Source of the DNA: a virus | Reading direction: 5' to 3' (one strand) | IMG/VR virus record: IMGVR_UViG_3300047564_002279 | Location: 1 to 20,928 of that record | DNA: 20,928 nucleotides | Part shown: positions 3,374-19,917 of the stretch, piece after piece | Numbering within the stretch: position 1 is the first letter of the stretch | Layout of the letters: each line of letters opens with the position of its first letter | Made by a program: the position numbers and the translations under genes | The notes under the pieces: model-generated | What the model was told of the DNA's origin: nothing | Database searches by the model: none | What the model saw: the letters and a program-made list of their open reading frames with translations, nothing else

Positions 3374-3679
3374 ATGAGCAATCCGTATATTGAACCGCAA
3401 AATTATTATGAAAATTACCAAACTGCTGAACAACCAAAAGAAGGTATAGCTCTTGATGAGTTATGCTGGCATGTTTTTAATACAGAAGATGGAAAAAAGC
3501 TTTTGGAAATCATGAAAGACCGGTTTATTCTAACAGCAACACCCGGACCTATTAATGAAACATATCCAAATATGTGTGTTTTTTATGAAGGTTTTCGTGA
3601 AGCGTTTAGGCAAATTATTGGTAGTGTACAATCTTATCAAATTAAAAAAGATAACGAGGCTAAACAGGCAGGTGTTTAA
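3374..3679 (+). CDS. Bbp19-like small phage protein
   Basis: The frame is open from a GTG at 3341 inside the portal gene, but the ATG at 3374, two bases after the portal stop and preceded by AGGTG, is the likely start and gives 101 residues. The core reads CWHVFNTEDGKKLLEIMKDRF and later FYEGFREAFRQIIGSV. This pattern (aromatic, F.t.dGkk.L..m..rf, then a G.R..i..I helix) is that of the Bbp19-like domain found between portal and scaffold genes in podoviruses such as Bordetella phage BPP-1. Its function is not established. Its stop overlaps the scaffold start by one base (TAATG), so the two are probably translationally coupled, which suggests a role in head assembly. Confidence 0.72.
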   Translation: MSNPYIEPQNYYENYQTAEQPKEGIALDELCWHVFNTEDGKKLLEIMKDRFILTATPGPINETYPNMCVFYEGFREAFRQIIGSVQSYQIKKDNEAKQAGV

Positions 3680-4380
3680 TGGGTTTTGATACTATTTCAG
3701 CAACAGTAGAAGATATGGCTATTCAAGATTCTGGAATTTCGAATACTCCAGAACCAGCATGGTGGTTAGATGATAATACACCGGGCGTAGGTGATAGACC
3801 TGAATGGTTACCTAGCCAATTTAAAAAAGCCTCTGATGTTGCCAAGTCATATCAGGAACTACAAAAACGTTTTGGTGAAGCTCCTAGTGAGTATTCTTGG
3901 GAAGCAGGCAAAGGATGGGTTGAGCCGGATTACGAACCTTTTCAAGAACTAGCTCAATTTGCAAAATCAAAGCGTGTTCCACAAGAGGTAATGGATAAAA
4001 TGCTATCCACGGTTGGAAAATATTTAGATGAATTTGGTGTTGACTATGAAGCTGAAAAACAAGCTTTAGGTGAAAAAGCAGATGAACGTTTAGATATTTT
4101 AAATAACTGGGCTAGAAGCAATTTATCAGAACAAAGTTTTCAAGCACTTACAACCAATCTTAGAACGGCTGATGCAGTTTTAGCACTAGAAGAATTGAGG
4201 TCAAAAATGTTAGGACAAAATACAATGATACCCGGTAATGAGCAAGCGCAATCAGATGGCGTGTTTAGCTTAGAAGACCTGCAAACTGAACTAACTCAAA
4301 ATATAGAGAAGTATAAATCTGACCCACGCTATAGACGTGAAATTACAGAAAAAATTGAAAGATTGCAAAATAATCGATAA
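3679..4380 (+). CDS. Scaffolding / capsid assembly protein (T7 gp9-like)
   Basis: This 233-residue acidic, mostly helical protein lies between portal and major capsid genes, the standard place of the scaffold. It carries the usual N-terminal feature of T7-like scaffolds, RPEWLPSQFKKASDVAKSYQ at residues 40-59, followed by LQKRFG, with a Trp- and Pro-rich acidic stretch before it. The C-terminal part (about 190-233) is a charged helix expected to contact the capsid shell. It is shorter than T7 gp9 (307). It starts by a TAATG overlap with the preceding gene and is followed by a 142-bp non-coding gap before the capsid gene. Scaffolds guide capsid closure and leave before or during packaging. Confidence 0.88.
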   Translation: MGFDTISATVEDMAIQDSGISNTPEPAWWLDDNTPGVGDRPEWLPSQFKKASDVAKSYQELQKRFGEAPSEYSWEAGKGWVEPDYEPFQELAQFAKSKRVPQEVMDKMLSTVGKYLDEFGVDYEAEKQALGEKADERLDILNNWARSNLSEQSFQALTTNLRTADAVLALEELRSKMLGQNTMIPGNEQAQSDGVFSLEDLQTELTQNIEKYKSDPRYRREITEKIERLQNNR

Positions 4381-4390
4381 ATCTTTAAAC

Positions 4391-4438
4391 TAAATGCAAG
4401 TGTCCAGTTTTCTGGAGAAATTGGAAAACTTGCATTTA
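4391..4438 (+). promoter_or_regulatory. Nested inverted repeat upstream of the capsid gene
   Basis: TAAATGCAAGT at 4391-4401 is perfectly matched by ACTTGCATTTA at 4428-4438, an 11-bp stem. Inside it, TCCAG at 4403-4407 and CTGGA at 4412-4416 can form a second small hairpin with a TTTT loop. An alternative pairing extends the outer stem by joining AGTTTTC to GAAAACT. In the RNA this would be a branched or switching hairpin about 85 bases before the capsid start. No U-run follows it directly, so it is not a classical terminator; the T-rich tracts come only at about 4487-4509. It may be a transcript processing or stabilising element that sets the capsid mRNA level. It sits in the largest gap within the head-tail gene block. 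Confidence 0.5.
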
Positions 4439-4522
4439 CGGCCCTTATTGGACAACCAGACAAATTCAAGCCCAATTTAAAACGAGTTTTTTATTTATTA
4501 ACTTTTTTTAGAGGGGACAATT

Positions 4523-5353
4523 ATGTCTACATCTTTGACCAATGTACAACAGATTGAGTTCGATGCACTCGTAAAAGCAGAATATCGTTCGCAAGGTTTT
4601 TTACTTCGTGATTCCGTTCGTATGAAATATGATGTTATCGGTGCGCAAGTAGAATTTCGTAAAGTAAACCAAGTTATTTCTGTACCAACTGCTTATTTAG
4701 CTGCTGTTACAATTCAAGATCCTGGCTACAATAAAGTTCTATGTACTTTACAAAAATACACTACACCAACCGCAGTGGATGAAGTGCAAGAATTAACAGT
4801 TAACTTTGACGCTAAAATGGAAAACGCCATGTTAGTCGCTCAAGCTATGGGTCGTCGTTCTGACCAGATTACAATTGACGCAATTGCTGCTGACGTTGGT
4901 GACACTATTCCAGATGGTGGTACTAACTTTAACTACGAAAAATTCACCCAATGTTTAGAATTTTTTGATAATCATGCAGTACCATTAGCTGAAAGATTTG
5001 TTGCTATGTCTGCAAGTAACTTCAAATCTTTAATGCAAGATGACCAATTCACCAGTACATTCTATACTCGTAACGATCCAATCGACCGTGCACGTATTCG
5101 TGAATACTTAGGCTTTAACGTCGTTATCATTCCTCAAATGACTGAAGGTGGTTTACCACAAGTTGGTAACATCCAAACTGCTTTAGCTTGGCACAAAATG
5201 TCTACTGGTATGGGTATCGGCATGAACTTCCGTACTGAAATCAACTACATTCCACAAAACACTTCTTACTTAGTAAACGGTGTATTTTCTGCTGGTGCGG
5301 TTGTAATTGATAATCGTGGTACATTAGCAATTGAATGTGATATCACTGCTTAA
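4523..5353 (+). CDS. Major capsid protein
   Basis: The 276-residue product is the shell protein, of the short HK97-fold phage capsid type. The position directly after the scaffold, the strong ribosome site (GAGGGG at 4511-4516, seven bases before the ATG) and the typical N-terminal segment (MSTSLTNVQQIEFDALVKAE, then DSVRMKYDV) support this. Later parts include FDAKMENAMLVAQAMGRRSD near 97-116, expected in the long spine helix and its flank, and a C-terminal strand region that reads NTSYLVNGVFSAGAVVIDNRG. It is shorter than T7 gp10A (345). Codon use differs from its neighbours: 12 of 13 arginines are CGT, and more codons end in C, which fits very high expression. There is no sign of the T7-type capsid frameshift extension. 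Confidence 0.93.
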   Translation: MSTSLTNVQQIEFDALVKAEYRSQGFLLRDSVRMKYDVIGAQVEFRKVNQVISVPTAYLAAVTIQDPGYNKVLCTLQKYTTPTAVDEVQELTVNFDAKMENAMLVAQAMGRRSDQITIDAIAADVGDTIPDGGTNFNYEKFTQCLEFFDNHAVPLAERFVAMSASNFKSLMQDDQFTSTFYTRNDPIDRARIREYLGFNVVIIPQMTEGGLPQVGNIQTALAWHKMSTGMGIGMNFRTEINYIPQNTSYLVNGVFSAGAVVIDNRGTLAIECDITA

Positions 5354-5367
5354 TAAGGGGAATTATA

Positions 5368-5964
5368 ATGGCTTTTAATGATTCAAGATGGACTAGACAA
5401 ACTCTAGCTTTTAACTCTGGTCGTGTAGTTACTGATGCAGGCCCTGAAAATGGCCCAGCAATATTTACCTATGCTTCTGCAACTGACAATATTGCAACTG
5501 TAACTGCAGCCGACTATTTTGCGCCTGTTGTTTATGATTTAGCAGTTGGCGACTTAATTTTTATCGATGCATCTGATGCAGACGGTATTTATTTAGTAAG
5601 CGCTGTTGATCGTGATTTAGGAACTATTTCTGTAGTTTCTTATGGTCCTGCTGGCGCTGTTGCAACTGCTAATATTCAAGCTGGTGCTGTAACTTTAGCA
5701 AAATTAGCTGCTGGAATTACACCTAGTCATGTTGTGAAATATGCTGCACAGTACACAACTACCGGTGGTTCTGCATCTGAAGCAATTACTGTAAATGGCG
5801 TATTAGCTACTGACTTAGTATTTATTCAAGTTAAAAACGATGGTACTAATAATCGCACAGTTTTAGCTGCTGCTGCAACATTAGATACTATCACCGTTAC
5901 ATTCTCTGGAGACCCTGGTGCTGACTTAGTTCTGTACTATCAAGTCTTAAGAGCTGCTGTTTAA
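5368..5964 (+). CDS. Probable capsid decoration / head-fibre protein
   Basis: This 198-residue protein follows the capsid gene by 14 bases and has a strong ribosome site (AAGGGG). The N-terminal part (about 20-95) is beta-rich and hydrophobic, of a kind common just after the capsid gene in podoviruses. Residues 101-117 (TANIQAGAVTLAKLAAG) form the short trimerising linker often seen in fibres. The C-terminal part, EAITVNGVLATDLVFIQV to ITVTFSGDPGADLVLYYQ, is a small beta-sandwich of the type found on phage decoration proteins and fibre tips. It is Ala- and Thr-rich and has no cysteine. It probably sits on the capsid surface; a tail-associated fibre is the alternative. The role is inferred from place and composition. 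Confidence 0.62.
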   Translation: MAFNDSRWTRQTLAFNSGRVVTDAGPENGPAIFTYASATDNIATVTAADYFAPVVYDLAVGDLIFIDASDADGIYLVSAVDRDLGTISVVSYGPAGAVATANIQAGAVTLAKLAAGITPSHVVKYAAQYTTTGGSASEAITVNGVLATDLVFIQVKNDGTNNRTVLAAAATLDTITVTFSGDPGADLVLYYQVLRAAV

Positions 5965-17736: not shown

Positions 17737-19917
17737 ATGCCAAAAATCAAATGGAGTCAATTCCCCAATGCTGGTGACATTCAAACTGGCGACATTCTAG
17801 TAGGATTAAGAGCTGGAACTAACGTACAACTTAATGCCGTAACACCAGAAGAAATACAATCTTCCGCTTTTAACTTTGCGTTAGCTGGTGGTGCAAATGA
17901 TGCTTTTACATTAACTTTAAATCCACCAATAACATCTTATACAGACGGTTTGTTAGTCACCATGACAACAAATGGTTTGACTAATTTGACCGGAACACCA
18001 ACTTTAAATGTTGATGGTGTGGGTGCTAAAACAATCACCTATCAAGGTTTGCAACTTGAGGTTGGGGATTTAAATGGAACCGGTACATATGTATTAGTTT
18101 ACAATGCTACAAACAATTACTTTGATTTAGTAAATCCAAGTGTATCGGCAGCTAATACTCGATTAGTTCAGTATAACGAATATAATTACTCCATAGATAC
18201 AGGCGCTGCCAATGCTTACGTTGCTACATTGCAGCCCGGAGATGTTTCTTACACTGACGGCCTTTGTGTTTTGTTAAGGGTGACTAATGCAAACTCTGGC
18301 GCATCTACAATTAATGTTAATGGTGCTGGTGTTATTCCAATAGTTTTAAGCAATAACGCTGCTTTAGTTGGTGGCGAATTAGTAGTTGGTCAAGTCGCAT
18401 TATTAACGTACAGCTCTGCATATTCTAAATTTATTTTAATTAATCCATCTGATGATACTACTACATTATTGCCAGTTACTAATCATAGAATTGCTAGATT
18501 TGATGGCACATCAGGACGCATTCAAAATAGCTCTGCATCTATCTCTGACGCCGGTGTTTTAACTACACAAGCAGATGCTGTCATTCATACTGTAAATGTT
18601 GGCTTAGGTGGTGGGGCTGTAGCTACTAATACAAGAGTTGGGGTAAGTGCTCTTGCAAGTAATACAACGGGAAATAATAATACAGCTGAAGGTAATTTAT
18701 CTTCAAATCAAATTACAACAGGAAGCGGAAATGCTTCATTTGGATCACAATCATTGCAGCAAAATATATCAGGAGCAAATAACACTGCAATTGGTTATGT
18801 AGCATTGAATTTAAACACTGCTAGTTCTAATACAGCTGTTGGTGCTGGAGCTTTACAACTAAATACGAGTGGTACACAAAATACTGCATTTGGTTATGCG
18901 GCTGGTAATCAAATAACTACAGGGATTCAAAATACCTTTGCAGGTAATCTTTCTGCTTATAAACAAACAACTGCAAGCGGTAATTCTGGATTTGGACACG
19001 AAGTTTTATATCAAAACATTACTGGTGCAAGTAATTCAGCTTTTGGATATCAAGCTTTAACATCCACTACAAGTTCATTAAATTCTGGTTTTGGTTATCA
19101 GGCTGGTGGTAATAATACATCAGGAACCAATAATACTTTTATTGGTTATAAATCTGGCTTTACATCGACAACTACTAGTAACATAACCGCAATAGGCTAC
19201 CAGGCTTTGTTAAATAATACAGTTGCAAACAACACCGCGGTAGGTAGTGGGGCTATGGACGCATGTACCATGGGAACAGGCGTTGGTATTGGTTTAGATG
19301 CTTTAGGAGTATTGACTACCGGTGTTAGAAATACAGCTGTTGGAACATCAGCAGCAGCAACAATAACAACAGTCAATGACGTTACCGCTATTGGCCATGG
19401 TAGTTTAACTTTAAATACTGGCGCACAAAATACGGCAACAGGATCTAATTGTTTATTTTCAAATAGCAGTGGTATACAAAATTGTGCTTTCGGTTCGTAT
19501 GCTGAATATTCAAATTCAACCGGTTCAAATAATACCGGATTTGGTTACAGTGTAAATTATTCACTTTCAACTGGTTCGAATAATACAGCCATAGGCAGTA
19601 TTGCTGGATATATTGGCGCAACAGGAGCCGTTTCATTAACGACTGGTTCGAACAATACTTTCCTTGGTTACCGCTCATGCGCTAATGCAGCGGACGCAGC
19701 AGGAACAATTGGTATTGGTGCTGATTCTGTTCCGGAGAAAGCAACAGGTGCAACCAGCGCAGACAATGGGCCAGGTATTGCTATTGGCTCAGCTAGTTAC
19801 CCTGTAGGTTTCCGTGGCGATGGTACGATTTACCCAAGTGCTGGAACTAGTTCTGGTTATTTTAGAATCAAACTGAACGGAACTTATTACAAAATTTTAT
19901 TATGTGCTGACGTATAA
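17737..19917 (+). CDS. Large tail adhesin with about 20 short beta repeats
   Basis: This 726-residue protein is a probable trimeric fibre that binds the host surface. Residues 1-40 (IKWSQFPNAGDIQTGDILVG) are a common fibre N terminus that attaches to the virion or to another fibre. Two copies of a domain of about 90 residues follow (45-135 and 149-238). Residues about 297-648 are some 20 repeats of 16-17 residues with the pattern NTAxGxxAL..nTtGxN, which should form a beta-roll or beta-prism like that of YadA-type adhesin heads. The tip, YFRIKLNGTYYKILLCADV, is a common fibre ending. No S74 peptidase domain or visible depolymerase motif is present. GGAG precedes the ATG. Function is inferred from architecture. 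Confidence 0.82.
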   Translation: MPKIKWSQFPNAGDIQTGDILVGLRAGTNVQLNAVTPEEIQSSAFNFALAGGANDAFTLTLNPPITSYTDGLLVTMTTNGLTNLTGTPTLNVDGVGAKTITYQGLQLEVGDLNGTGTYVLVYNATNNYFDLVNPSVSAANTRLVQYNEYNYSIDTGAANAYVATLQPGDVSYTDGLCVLLRVTNANSGASTINVNGAGVIPIVLSNNAALVGGELVVGQVALLTYSSAYSKFILINPSDDTTTLLPVTNHRIARFDGTSGRIQNSSASISDAGVLTTQADAVIHTVNVGLGGGAVATNTRVGVSALASNTTGNNNTAEGNLSSNQITTGSGNASFGSQSLQQNISGANNTAIGYVALNLNTASSNTAVGAGALQLNTSGTQNTAFGYAAGNQITTGIQNTFAGNLSAYKQTTASGNSGFGHEVLYQNITGASNSAFGYQALTSTTSSLNSGFGYQAGGNNTSGTNNTFIGYKSGFTSTTTSNITAIGYQALLNNTVANNTAVGSGAMDACTMGTGVGIGLDALGVLTTGVRNTAVGTSAAATITTVNDVTAIGHGSLTLNTGAQNTATGSNCLFSNSSGIQNCAFGSYAEYSNSTGSNNTGFGYSVNYSLSTGSNNTAIGSIAGYIGATGAVSLTTGSNNTFLGYRSCANAADAAGTIGIGADSVPEKATGATSADNGPGIAIGSASYPVGFRGDGTIYPSAGTSSGYFRIKLNGTYYKILLCADV
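17869..18141 (+). repeat. First copy of a duplicated fibre domain
   Basis: Codes for residues 45-135 of the large adhesin. It shares with the second copy the frame ANDAFTLTLNPP..SYTDGL, then TLNVDGVGAK..I, then a final FDLVNPS strand. The two copies are clearly diverged, so the duplication is old or came with the domain family. Confidence 0.6.
18181..18450 (+). repeat. Second copy of a duplicated fibre domain
   Basis: Codes for residues 149-238 of the large adhesin. Matching landmarks are ANAYVATLQPG..SYTDGL, then TINVNGAGVI, then FILINPS. A linker of about 13 residues separates it from the first copy. Confidence 0.6.
18625..19680 (+). repeat. Array of about 20 degenerate 16-17-codon repeats
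   Basis: The coding repeats begin with AAT-ACT/ACA-GCT type codons (Asn-Thr-Ala), a Gly-Tyr pair three codons later and a Thr-Gly-x-Asn end. Examples of units are NTAIGYVALNLNTASS, NTAVGAGALQLNTSGTQ, NTAFGYAAGNQITTGIQ and NTGFGYSVNYSLSTGSN. No two units are identical, and the last long one (about 19585-19650) has a seven-residue insertion. The array is a likely site of unequal recombination. Confidence 0.78.

Follow-up and report, generated by a model that had tools for sequence, protein, structure and literature searches.

Regulation by proteins that bind mRNA leaders is a known kind of control, and several described systems share features with the locus examined in this study. The scaffolding protein of phage P22 is said to autoregulate by acting after transcription (a report attributed to Wyckoff and Casjens, 1985, J Virol 53:192), and the present case likewise concerns a phage scaffolding protein that would affect gene expression; however, control in P22 is reportedly negative and exerted on the scaffold's own gene, whereas here the target would be the next gene, encoding the major capsid protein (MCP), the RNA is defined, candidate specificity residues can be named, and the effect is probably positive. 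The MS2-type coat protein and its operator hairpin are similar in that a capsid-building protein acts as a symmetric dimer on a short RNA structure at a start site, but here the protein would be the scaffold rather than the coat, the phage has a dsDNA genome, two internal loops replace one hairpin loop, and the Shine-Dalgarno (SD) sequence takes part in an alternative pairing. Antiterminator (RAT) hairpins of the LicT/SacY type are roughly two-fold symmetric, offer two asymmetric internal loops to a dimer and compete with a second hairpin, which is a terminator there but an SD hairpin here, and no sign of a related protein was seen. Autoregulating ribosomal-protein leaders are comparable in that an assembly protein acts on an mRNA leader and balances the production of a complex, the genes here being phage structural genes.

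Deletion of the scaffold in phage 80alpha impaired capsid protein production, which the authors interpreted as misfolding and degradation (PMC5744158); an effect on expression is another reading of that result. No report of a scaffold-binding capsid leader was found in searches of open-licence literature, which does not prove that none exists. The reading favored here is that the scaffold binds a candidate operator in the leader of the MCP gene and controls MCP translation, probably by activation, to which a probability of roughly 0.65 is assigned from comparative sequence analysis.

The window, meaning the whole stretch of DNA analyzed, comprises 20,928 nucleotides of viral sequence (positions 1 to 20,928 of IMG/VR record IMGVR_UViG_3300047564_002279). 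Family searches identified the neighboring genes as head-tail adaptor (portal), head assembly (scaffold), major head protein and tail proteins, with the scaffold gene located between the portal and MCP genes. The scaffold also matched PF05396 (T7-type scaffolding protein) weakly, scoring 24.0 bits against a cut-off of 27.1 over residues 122-226. Elsewhere in the window, an ORF of 156 aa encoded on the minus strand, at the left end (309-779), is lysozyme-like in appearance, and a 726-aa tail-region protein (17737-19917) is rich in NTAxG-type repeats. A gap of 142 nt separates the ORF at 3679-4380 from the MCP gene at 4523-5353, and the features discussed below are collected in Table 1.

Table 1. 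Positions in the window of the leader features, the adjoining genes and the scaffold codons discussed in the text.
Feature	Position	Strand	Basis
Scaffolding (head assembly) protein gene, 233 aa, proposed leader ligand	3679..4380	+	PHROG head assembly E 1.9e-9
Codon of F48 (F mostly with AYAA; Y with AYAC, AYCA)	3820..3822	+	7/8 class-change branches
Codons of predicted helix 51-65, proposed RNA-contact helix	3829..3873	+	Structure model; top coevolving columns
Codon of S57 (S, A or H by loop class)	3847..3849	+	8/8 class-change branches
Probable sigma70-like promoter TTGCAA-17-TAAACT, weak match in window	4363..4391	+	Sequence reading; clear in relatives
Left arm of 11-bp repeat (strand A)	4391..4401	+	Read-through RNA only, window's clade only
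Outer helix 5' strand, ends in invariant GG	4418..4424	+	pre-3.post3 covariation; best fold of RNA 4398-4480
Internal loop 1, AAAA in the window (relatives: AYAA/AYAC/AYCA)	4425..4428	+	Leader fits, covariation
Right arm of 11-bp repeat, contains strand B	4428..4438	+	Window fold, clade compensatory changes
P2 5' strand (B)	4429..4437	+	Covariation and pairing counts
H2: lower stem GG/CC, C 4442 opposite loop 2 ACAA 4452-4455, upper stem CC/GG	4440..4457	+	
P2 3' strand (C), ends AAG	4462..4470	+	Covariation and pairing counts
C 4471 (loop 1 partner), then CC-post 4472-4478; pairs with outer helix strand or SD	4471..4478	+	
Shine-Dalgarno GGGG of MCP, buried by P3	4513..4516	+	Leader folds
Major capsid protein (MCP) gene, 276 aa	4523..5353	+	PHROG major head protein; PF19821 E 2e-41

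The initial annotation had described an 11-bp inverted repeat in the gap before the capsid gene, enclosing a 5-bp hairpin and lacking a direct U-run. Its placement in the gap was right and the repeat is exact (arms 4391-4401 and 4428-4438), and RNA from 4380-4450 folds at -22 kcal/mol compared to a shuffle mean of -10.3 (z -4.18; 0/200 shuffles equally stable). The U-run is indeed missing: the terminator scan has no entry at 4391-4438, where the GC-rich stem followed by a U-run of an intrinsic terminator was not found. The inner hairpin, TCCAG with CTGGA, is not the best inner fold, which is instead a 9-bp pairing of 4403-4411 with 4417-4425. A competing pairing had also been suggested, and a switch of this kind exists in spirit, but the strands with support are 4418-4424, 4429-4437, 4462-4478 and the SD rather than AGTTTTC and GAAAACT. 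Compensatory changes in relatives, the test named beforehand for refuting the hairpin, were found and favor a structure.

The relatives are uncultured viral contig loci collected by MCP sequence searches, among which 276 loci with an MCP start yielded 109 distinct leaders; five of these (isolates or clones with an MCP identity of about 30%) were set aside, leaving 104. Leader gaps in the relatives are mostly 117-206 nt long and structured. Within the window's clade (12 distinct leaders), 98.3% of the cells of the 11-bp repeat are paired, and both sides have changed in 3 pairs and 10 cells, a number of cells reached in 0/500 shuffles. Outside this clade, the partner strand matches the upstream strand of its own leader no better than it matches those of other leaders (39 representatives, p 0.54); the generality of the reported repeat (A.B) was rejected on this result, as was that of the closing pairs of H1 (p 0.15). 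The 11-bp arm is a feature of the window's clade alone, and the reported hairpin marks the 5' border of a conserved element of greater extent, most of which lies downstream in the same gap (4418-4478, plus an SD hairpin extending to 4516).

The leaders also carry promoter sequences. A sigma70-like promoter is clear in 76 of the 104, which contain TTGACA within 115 nt upstream (4% in background stretches), each box being followed 16-20 nt on by a -10-like hexamer; a scan restricted to spacers of 16-18 had missed many sites with a 19-nt spacer. TATAAT occurs in 43 leaders (2.7% in background) and TGnTATAAT in 35 (0.9% in background), and a relative of the window, L108, has TTGCAA-18-TATAAT. The TTGACA box of some relatives (e.g., L168 and L190) overlaps the Val/Ile-Asp-Lys codons at the C-terminus of the scaffold; in these promoters the spacer is often 19 nt long and the -10 extended. 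From the corresponding boxes in the window, we infer an RNA start near 4398. Most of the left arm precedes this likely start and would therefore exist only in read-through RNA, and window RNA that begins upstream of the start folds into the 4391-4438 hairpin. The reported hairpin is thus most likely the read-through form of the RNA.

All 104 distinct leaders before this MCP family could be fitted to a long hairpin of approximately 65 nt, where the fits force the GG, the third and fourth loop letters (A[AC] or CA) and AAG-like anchors, biasing counts of those letters, and leave unforced the outer helix, loop letters 1-2, the choice of A or C at loop position 4 and scaffold residue 57. The automatic fit accommodated 101 leaders; the remaining three have AYCA in both loops and fit once AYCA was allowed. 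The long hairpin holds two copies of an asymmetric 1x4 internal loop (C opposite A-Y-A-A) in opposite orientation, following the plan GG-AYAA-B ... [R-C-CC-loop-GG-AYAA-Y] ... C-strand-C-CC-post, then the SD and AUG. Strand B pairs with the C strand to form P2 and GG-pre pairs with CC-post, all nested in one long hairpin, while in H2 covarying upper and lower stems flank the fixed loop of a C opposite four bases. Most leaders also have a hairpin that buries the SD.

Among 25 representatives, 83.0% of cells were paired (65.7% when shuffled), 16 of 19 pairs had changes on both sides, and double-change cells numbered 90 compared to 36.4 (0/500 shuffles as high); sliding the strands against each other abolished the pairing signal. 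H2, P2 and the outer pair pre-3.post3 gave some of the strongest signals in a tree-aware analysis of the 104 leaders, in which the null was a home-made reshuffling of substitutions and not R-scape. The outer pair, which was not used in fitting, is 88% paired with a z of 11.3 and fails in 5 of 41 representatives; co-changes in P2 are weak if counted on the scaffold tree. The loops are separated by 12-14 nt on the 5' side in 35/41 representatives and by 15-17 nt on the 3' side in 33/41, and two opposed loops about 13 nt apart make a roughly two-fold symmetric site. The leader hence combines covarying structure, conserved unpaired bases and an adjoining start site, as expected of a protein-responsive mRNA leader. 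Among the leaders of L177, L182, L190 and kin, many H1 hairpins have a UGAC-type loop in common, which may be a third contact site.

The element is confined to one genomic position. A covariance model placed a site upstream of the MCP gene in 77/81 loci (the window and 80 others) and in 65/65 further loci, missing only L056 and L058-L060, which have a GCAA variant, and found no second site above chance in any of these 81 and 65 loci. Whole records of 17-35 kb contained exactly one match each, always before the MCP gene (16/16), and the model found no copy of the leader before the scaffold gene. A pattern search of viral contigs returned 33 stretches, 33/33 of them just before an MCP gene of this family. 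In L058, two inserted genes (4359-5827; 260 and 229 aa, replication- or regulatory-looking) separate the scaffold gene from the MCP leader, which stays with MCP and has the GCAA loop variant. The element was absent from named isolates with 27-33% MCP identity (MEP301, SI2, ZCVPP1, EXVC031P, Vibrio 1.179.O and D105). Methylophilales phage MEP301 has one loosely H2-like hairpin before its MCP gene (GG-C-CCAGA...UCUGG-CAUA-CC, at L083:2817-3000), which the covariance model does not match and which was left uncounted.

The SD-hiding alternative pairing, the conserved loops and the separate promoter could suggest a riboswitch for a small molecule or a binding site of a host protein. However, Rfam 15 (4227 families) gave 0 matches at gathering score in the window and in the loci of 14 relatives, and a relaxed search of the gap gave three matches, all far under gathering scores. 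The pattern was matched once in bacterial and archaeal genomes, at a locus without this MCP and overlapping an unrelated gene, which is approximately the chance expectation by our own estimate. In addition, such a ligand would need to follow scaffold residue 57 (see below), and this explanation is considered extremely improbable.

A change in one loop copy is matched in the other on 6/6 branches for position 4 (A or C) and on 2/2 for position 3, while position 2 is not concerted (4 compared to 4.05 expected). The two loops of a leader are nearly always of one class. Concerted change of both loops suggests one ligand that contacts both. Another suggestion of the initial annotation, an RNase III processing site or mRNA stabilizer between the scaffold and MCP messages, accords with a long stretch of paired RNA between two genes of a structural block and is possible as a side role. 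As the main function it is highly unlikely: a cleavage site needs neither invariant C/AYAA loops nor a concerted second copy nor a scaffold residue that matches them, and neither role would explain the coevolution with the scaffold.

When columns of MCP, the scaffold and the next protein were screened for association with loop class, the clearest column with many changes was scaffold residue 57 (counted from the start codon), located in the motif LPxKF-KxxxDLAK-S-YxELEKR. Among 95 scaffolds, with the AYAA class taken as loops ending in AA and the AYAC class as loops ending in AC, residue 57 was S in 69, G in one and A in one of the AYAA class (the exceptions being L264 with G57 and L219 with A57), A in all 21 of the AYAC class and H in all three of the AYCA class. 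On the scaffold's own tree, 8/8 class changes fall on branches where residue 57 changes (0.71 expected; 0/20,000 simulations), and residue 48 (F or Y) follows 7/8; on the MCP tree, residue 57 matches 7/7 class changes, although some of the nodes that place class switches have low support. The top five coevolving scaffold columns (48, 53, 54, 57 and 62) all lie within residues 48-62. A few columns of MCP and the next protein also reach high z, with one or two substitutions each.

The class switches are convergent. The scaffold of L165 is nearest to scaffolds of the AYAA class, yet it has Y48 and A57, with ACAC in both loops, and L152 and L237 show the reverse switch among scaffold neighbors of the other class. 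Six leaders from later searches were held out (L296, L307, L355, L356, L357 and L360), and 6/6 matched the RNA model and 6/6 were compatible with the class rule, though L296 and L307 had been found by a pattern that fixes AYAA, so that only their residue was free. L356 and L357 have AYAC with Y48/A57, and L355, L296 and L307 have AA-ending loops with F48/S57; L360 has ACAA with F48/G57, so one of the six lacks S on AYAA. The MCP of L355 is 80% identical to that of L158 (AYAC), yet L355 has S57 and AA-ending loops, adding one more switch.

Autoregulation by MCP, as with the coat proteins of RNA phages, was considered since the leader occurs only before this MCP family and MCP columns 232 and 108 have high z (20.2 and 12.2), but these columns have 1 and 2 substitutions. 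Moreover, MCPs that are 95-97% identical differ in loop class (identities of 0.97 for L175/L186, 0.96 for L152/L149 and 0.95 for L165/L169), while scaffold residue 57 tracks the class. MCP is therefore unlikely to determine specificity, and the coat protein was rejected as ligand on these switches, leaving this alternative a very small probability. A different possibility is that the scaffold gene and the leader travel together as neighbors and that residue 57 has another contact partner; the leader immediately follows the scaffold gene, and scaffolds of leaderless named phages (Vibrio, Pelagibacter and Methylophilales phages) keep a related N-terminal motif with S. Such indirect coevolution is improbable, given that switches recur inside scaffold clades of the other class, that only residues 48-62 follow them, and that in L058 and its kin (GCAA loops) the rule of S57 with AA-ending loops holds despite the two genes between scaffold and leader. 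Taken together, the sequence comparisons make it very probable that the scaffold is the ligand of the leader. A protein-binding site that sets the capsid-to-scaffold ratio had been among the initial suggestions, and it fits remarkably well with two loop copies that coevolve with the scaffold.

A structure model of the scaffold, of middling confidence (pLDDT 74, pTM 0.38), places residues 53, 54, 57 and 62 on a helix spanning residues 51-65, with F48 just ahead of it. A fold search with this model gave no PDB match at E 0.001, and a profile search against solved structures gave only weak death-domain matches (best E 0.0025), outside residues 48-62. Scaffolding proteins are generally dimers or larger assemblies, which fits a two-fold RNA site. 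The related motif of the leaderless isolates, RPxW/Y-xPExF...(A/G)KS, is found in L083:2010-2813, L086:1623-2414, L087:2077-2883 and L089:2071-2883. Its presence in leaderless phages means that the region may have another or older role, or other RNA targets.

The pairing of the SD bears on the direction of control. In best folds, CC-post pairs with the SD region in 41/41 post-C segments and in 39/41 folds from pre to AUG, and this pairing is better within a leader than across leaders (p 9e-7, or p 0.004 without the CC), as is that of the outer helix (p 0.003). Column-by-column evidence for P3, the hairpin that buries the SD, is modest. On the MCP tree, post3 and pre-3 change on a shared branch five times (1.7 expected) and post3 and x1 likewise five times (1.3 expected); on the scaffold tree, each of these combinations does so six times. 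The strand after AAGC thus shows covariation with two partners, the long hairpin and the SD strand, which is the mark of alternative pairing. Both alternative pairs are possible in 28/41 representatives, and the mutually exclusive pairings involve the SD. For window RNA spanning 4398-4480, which stops short of the SD, the long hairpin is the most stable structure (cost 0.0), and in RNA extended to contain the SD, the SD is paired. Across leaders that stop short of the SD, the median cost of the long hairpin is 4.9 kcal/mol if 45 nt of sequence upstream are included and 0.4 if they are left off.

On the full leader, the state with the long hairpin is on average 13.4 kcal/mol less stable than the best fold (41 leaders), a cost that disfavors a simple equilibrium switch on the full transcript. 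Forcing the long hairpin raises the openness of the SD from 0.15 to 0.31 on average and in 32/41 leaders, while in the window itself it falls from 0.25 to 0.18. With this cost and this modest opening, either activation has to take place while the RNA is being transcribed or the proposed direction is mistaken. Negative control is the rule in most known phage operators, and the scaffold may instead repress MCP by binding a three-way junction in which H1, P2/H2 and P3 coexist and the SD is locked shut. This alternative, which is considered unlikely, agrees with P3 as the default fold in the counts above and with the cost of the long hairpin on the full leader; however, it has no need for the covariation of the outer helix (pre-3.post3 and pre-4.post4), within the window's clade, post3 and post4 are paired as part of the outer helix, and P3 of the window has the A of post3 opposite an A. 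Provided that the scaffold is the ligand, activation is the likely direction, and capture during transcription is preferred over an equilibrium switch.

Under activation, the MCP gene would have its own promoter and a structured 5' leader, an operator on which the phage's scaffolding protein acts. RNA transcribed from this promoter would form the long hairpin first, and a scaffold dimer would contact both loops through helix 51-65. Binding as the RNA emerges would keep CC-post in the long hairpin, leaving the SD free and allowing MCP to be translated, while without scaffold CC-post would pair with the SD and translation would be low. The output of shell protein would then be coupled to the supply of scaffold. 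The sequences show the structure, the alternative pairings, the concerted loops and the coevolution with scaffold residues 48-62; binding is inferred from that coevolution, and its stoichiometry and direction belong to the proposal.

The balance between scaffold and shell protein in tailed phages is an old question, for which the comparisons offer a candidate for the RNA target, residues likely to make the contact and three specificity classes that occur in nature. The new element would be a scaffold-specific capsid-gene leader with a natural specificity code and, at its core, a new RNA family. A broader proposal, judged to have about even chances, is that phage scaffolding proteins are sequence-specific RNA-binding regulators that act as a dimer through a one-residue code (S57/AYAA, A57/AYAC and H57/AYCA), with capsid mRNA switched on during its synthesis and only when free scaffold is present. 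If true, the leader would represent a new RNA family and the scaffold a new class of phage RNA-binding protein, linked by a code of one residue to one base, and the motif in scaffolds of leaderless Vibrio, Pelagibacter and Methylophilales phages would point to further RNA targets.
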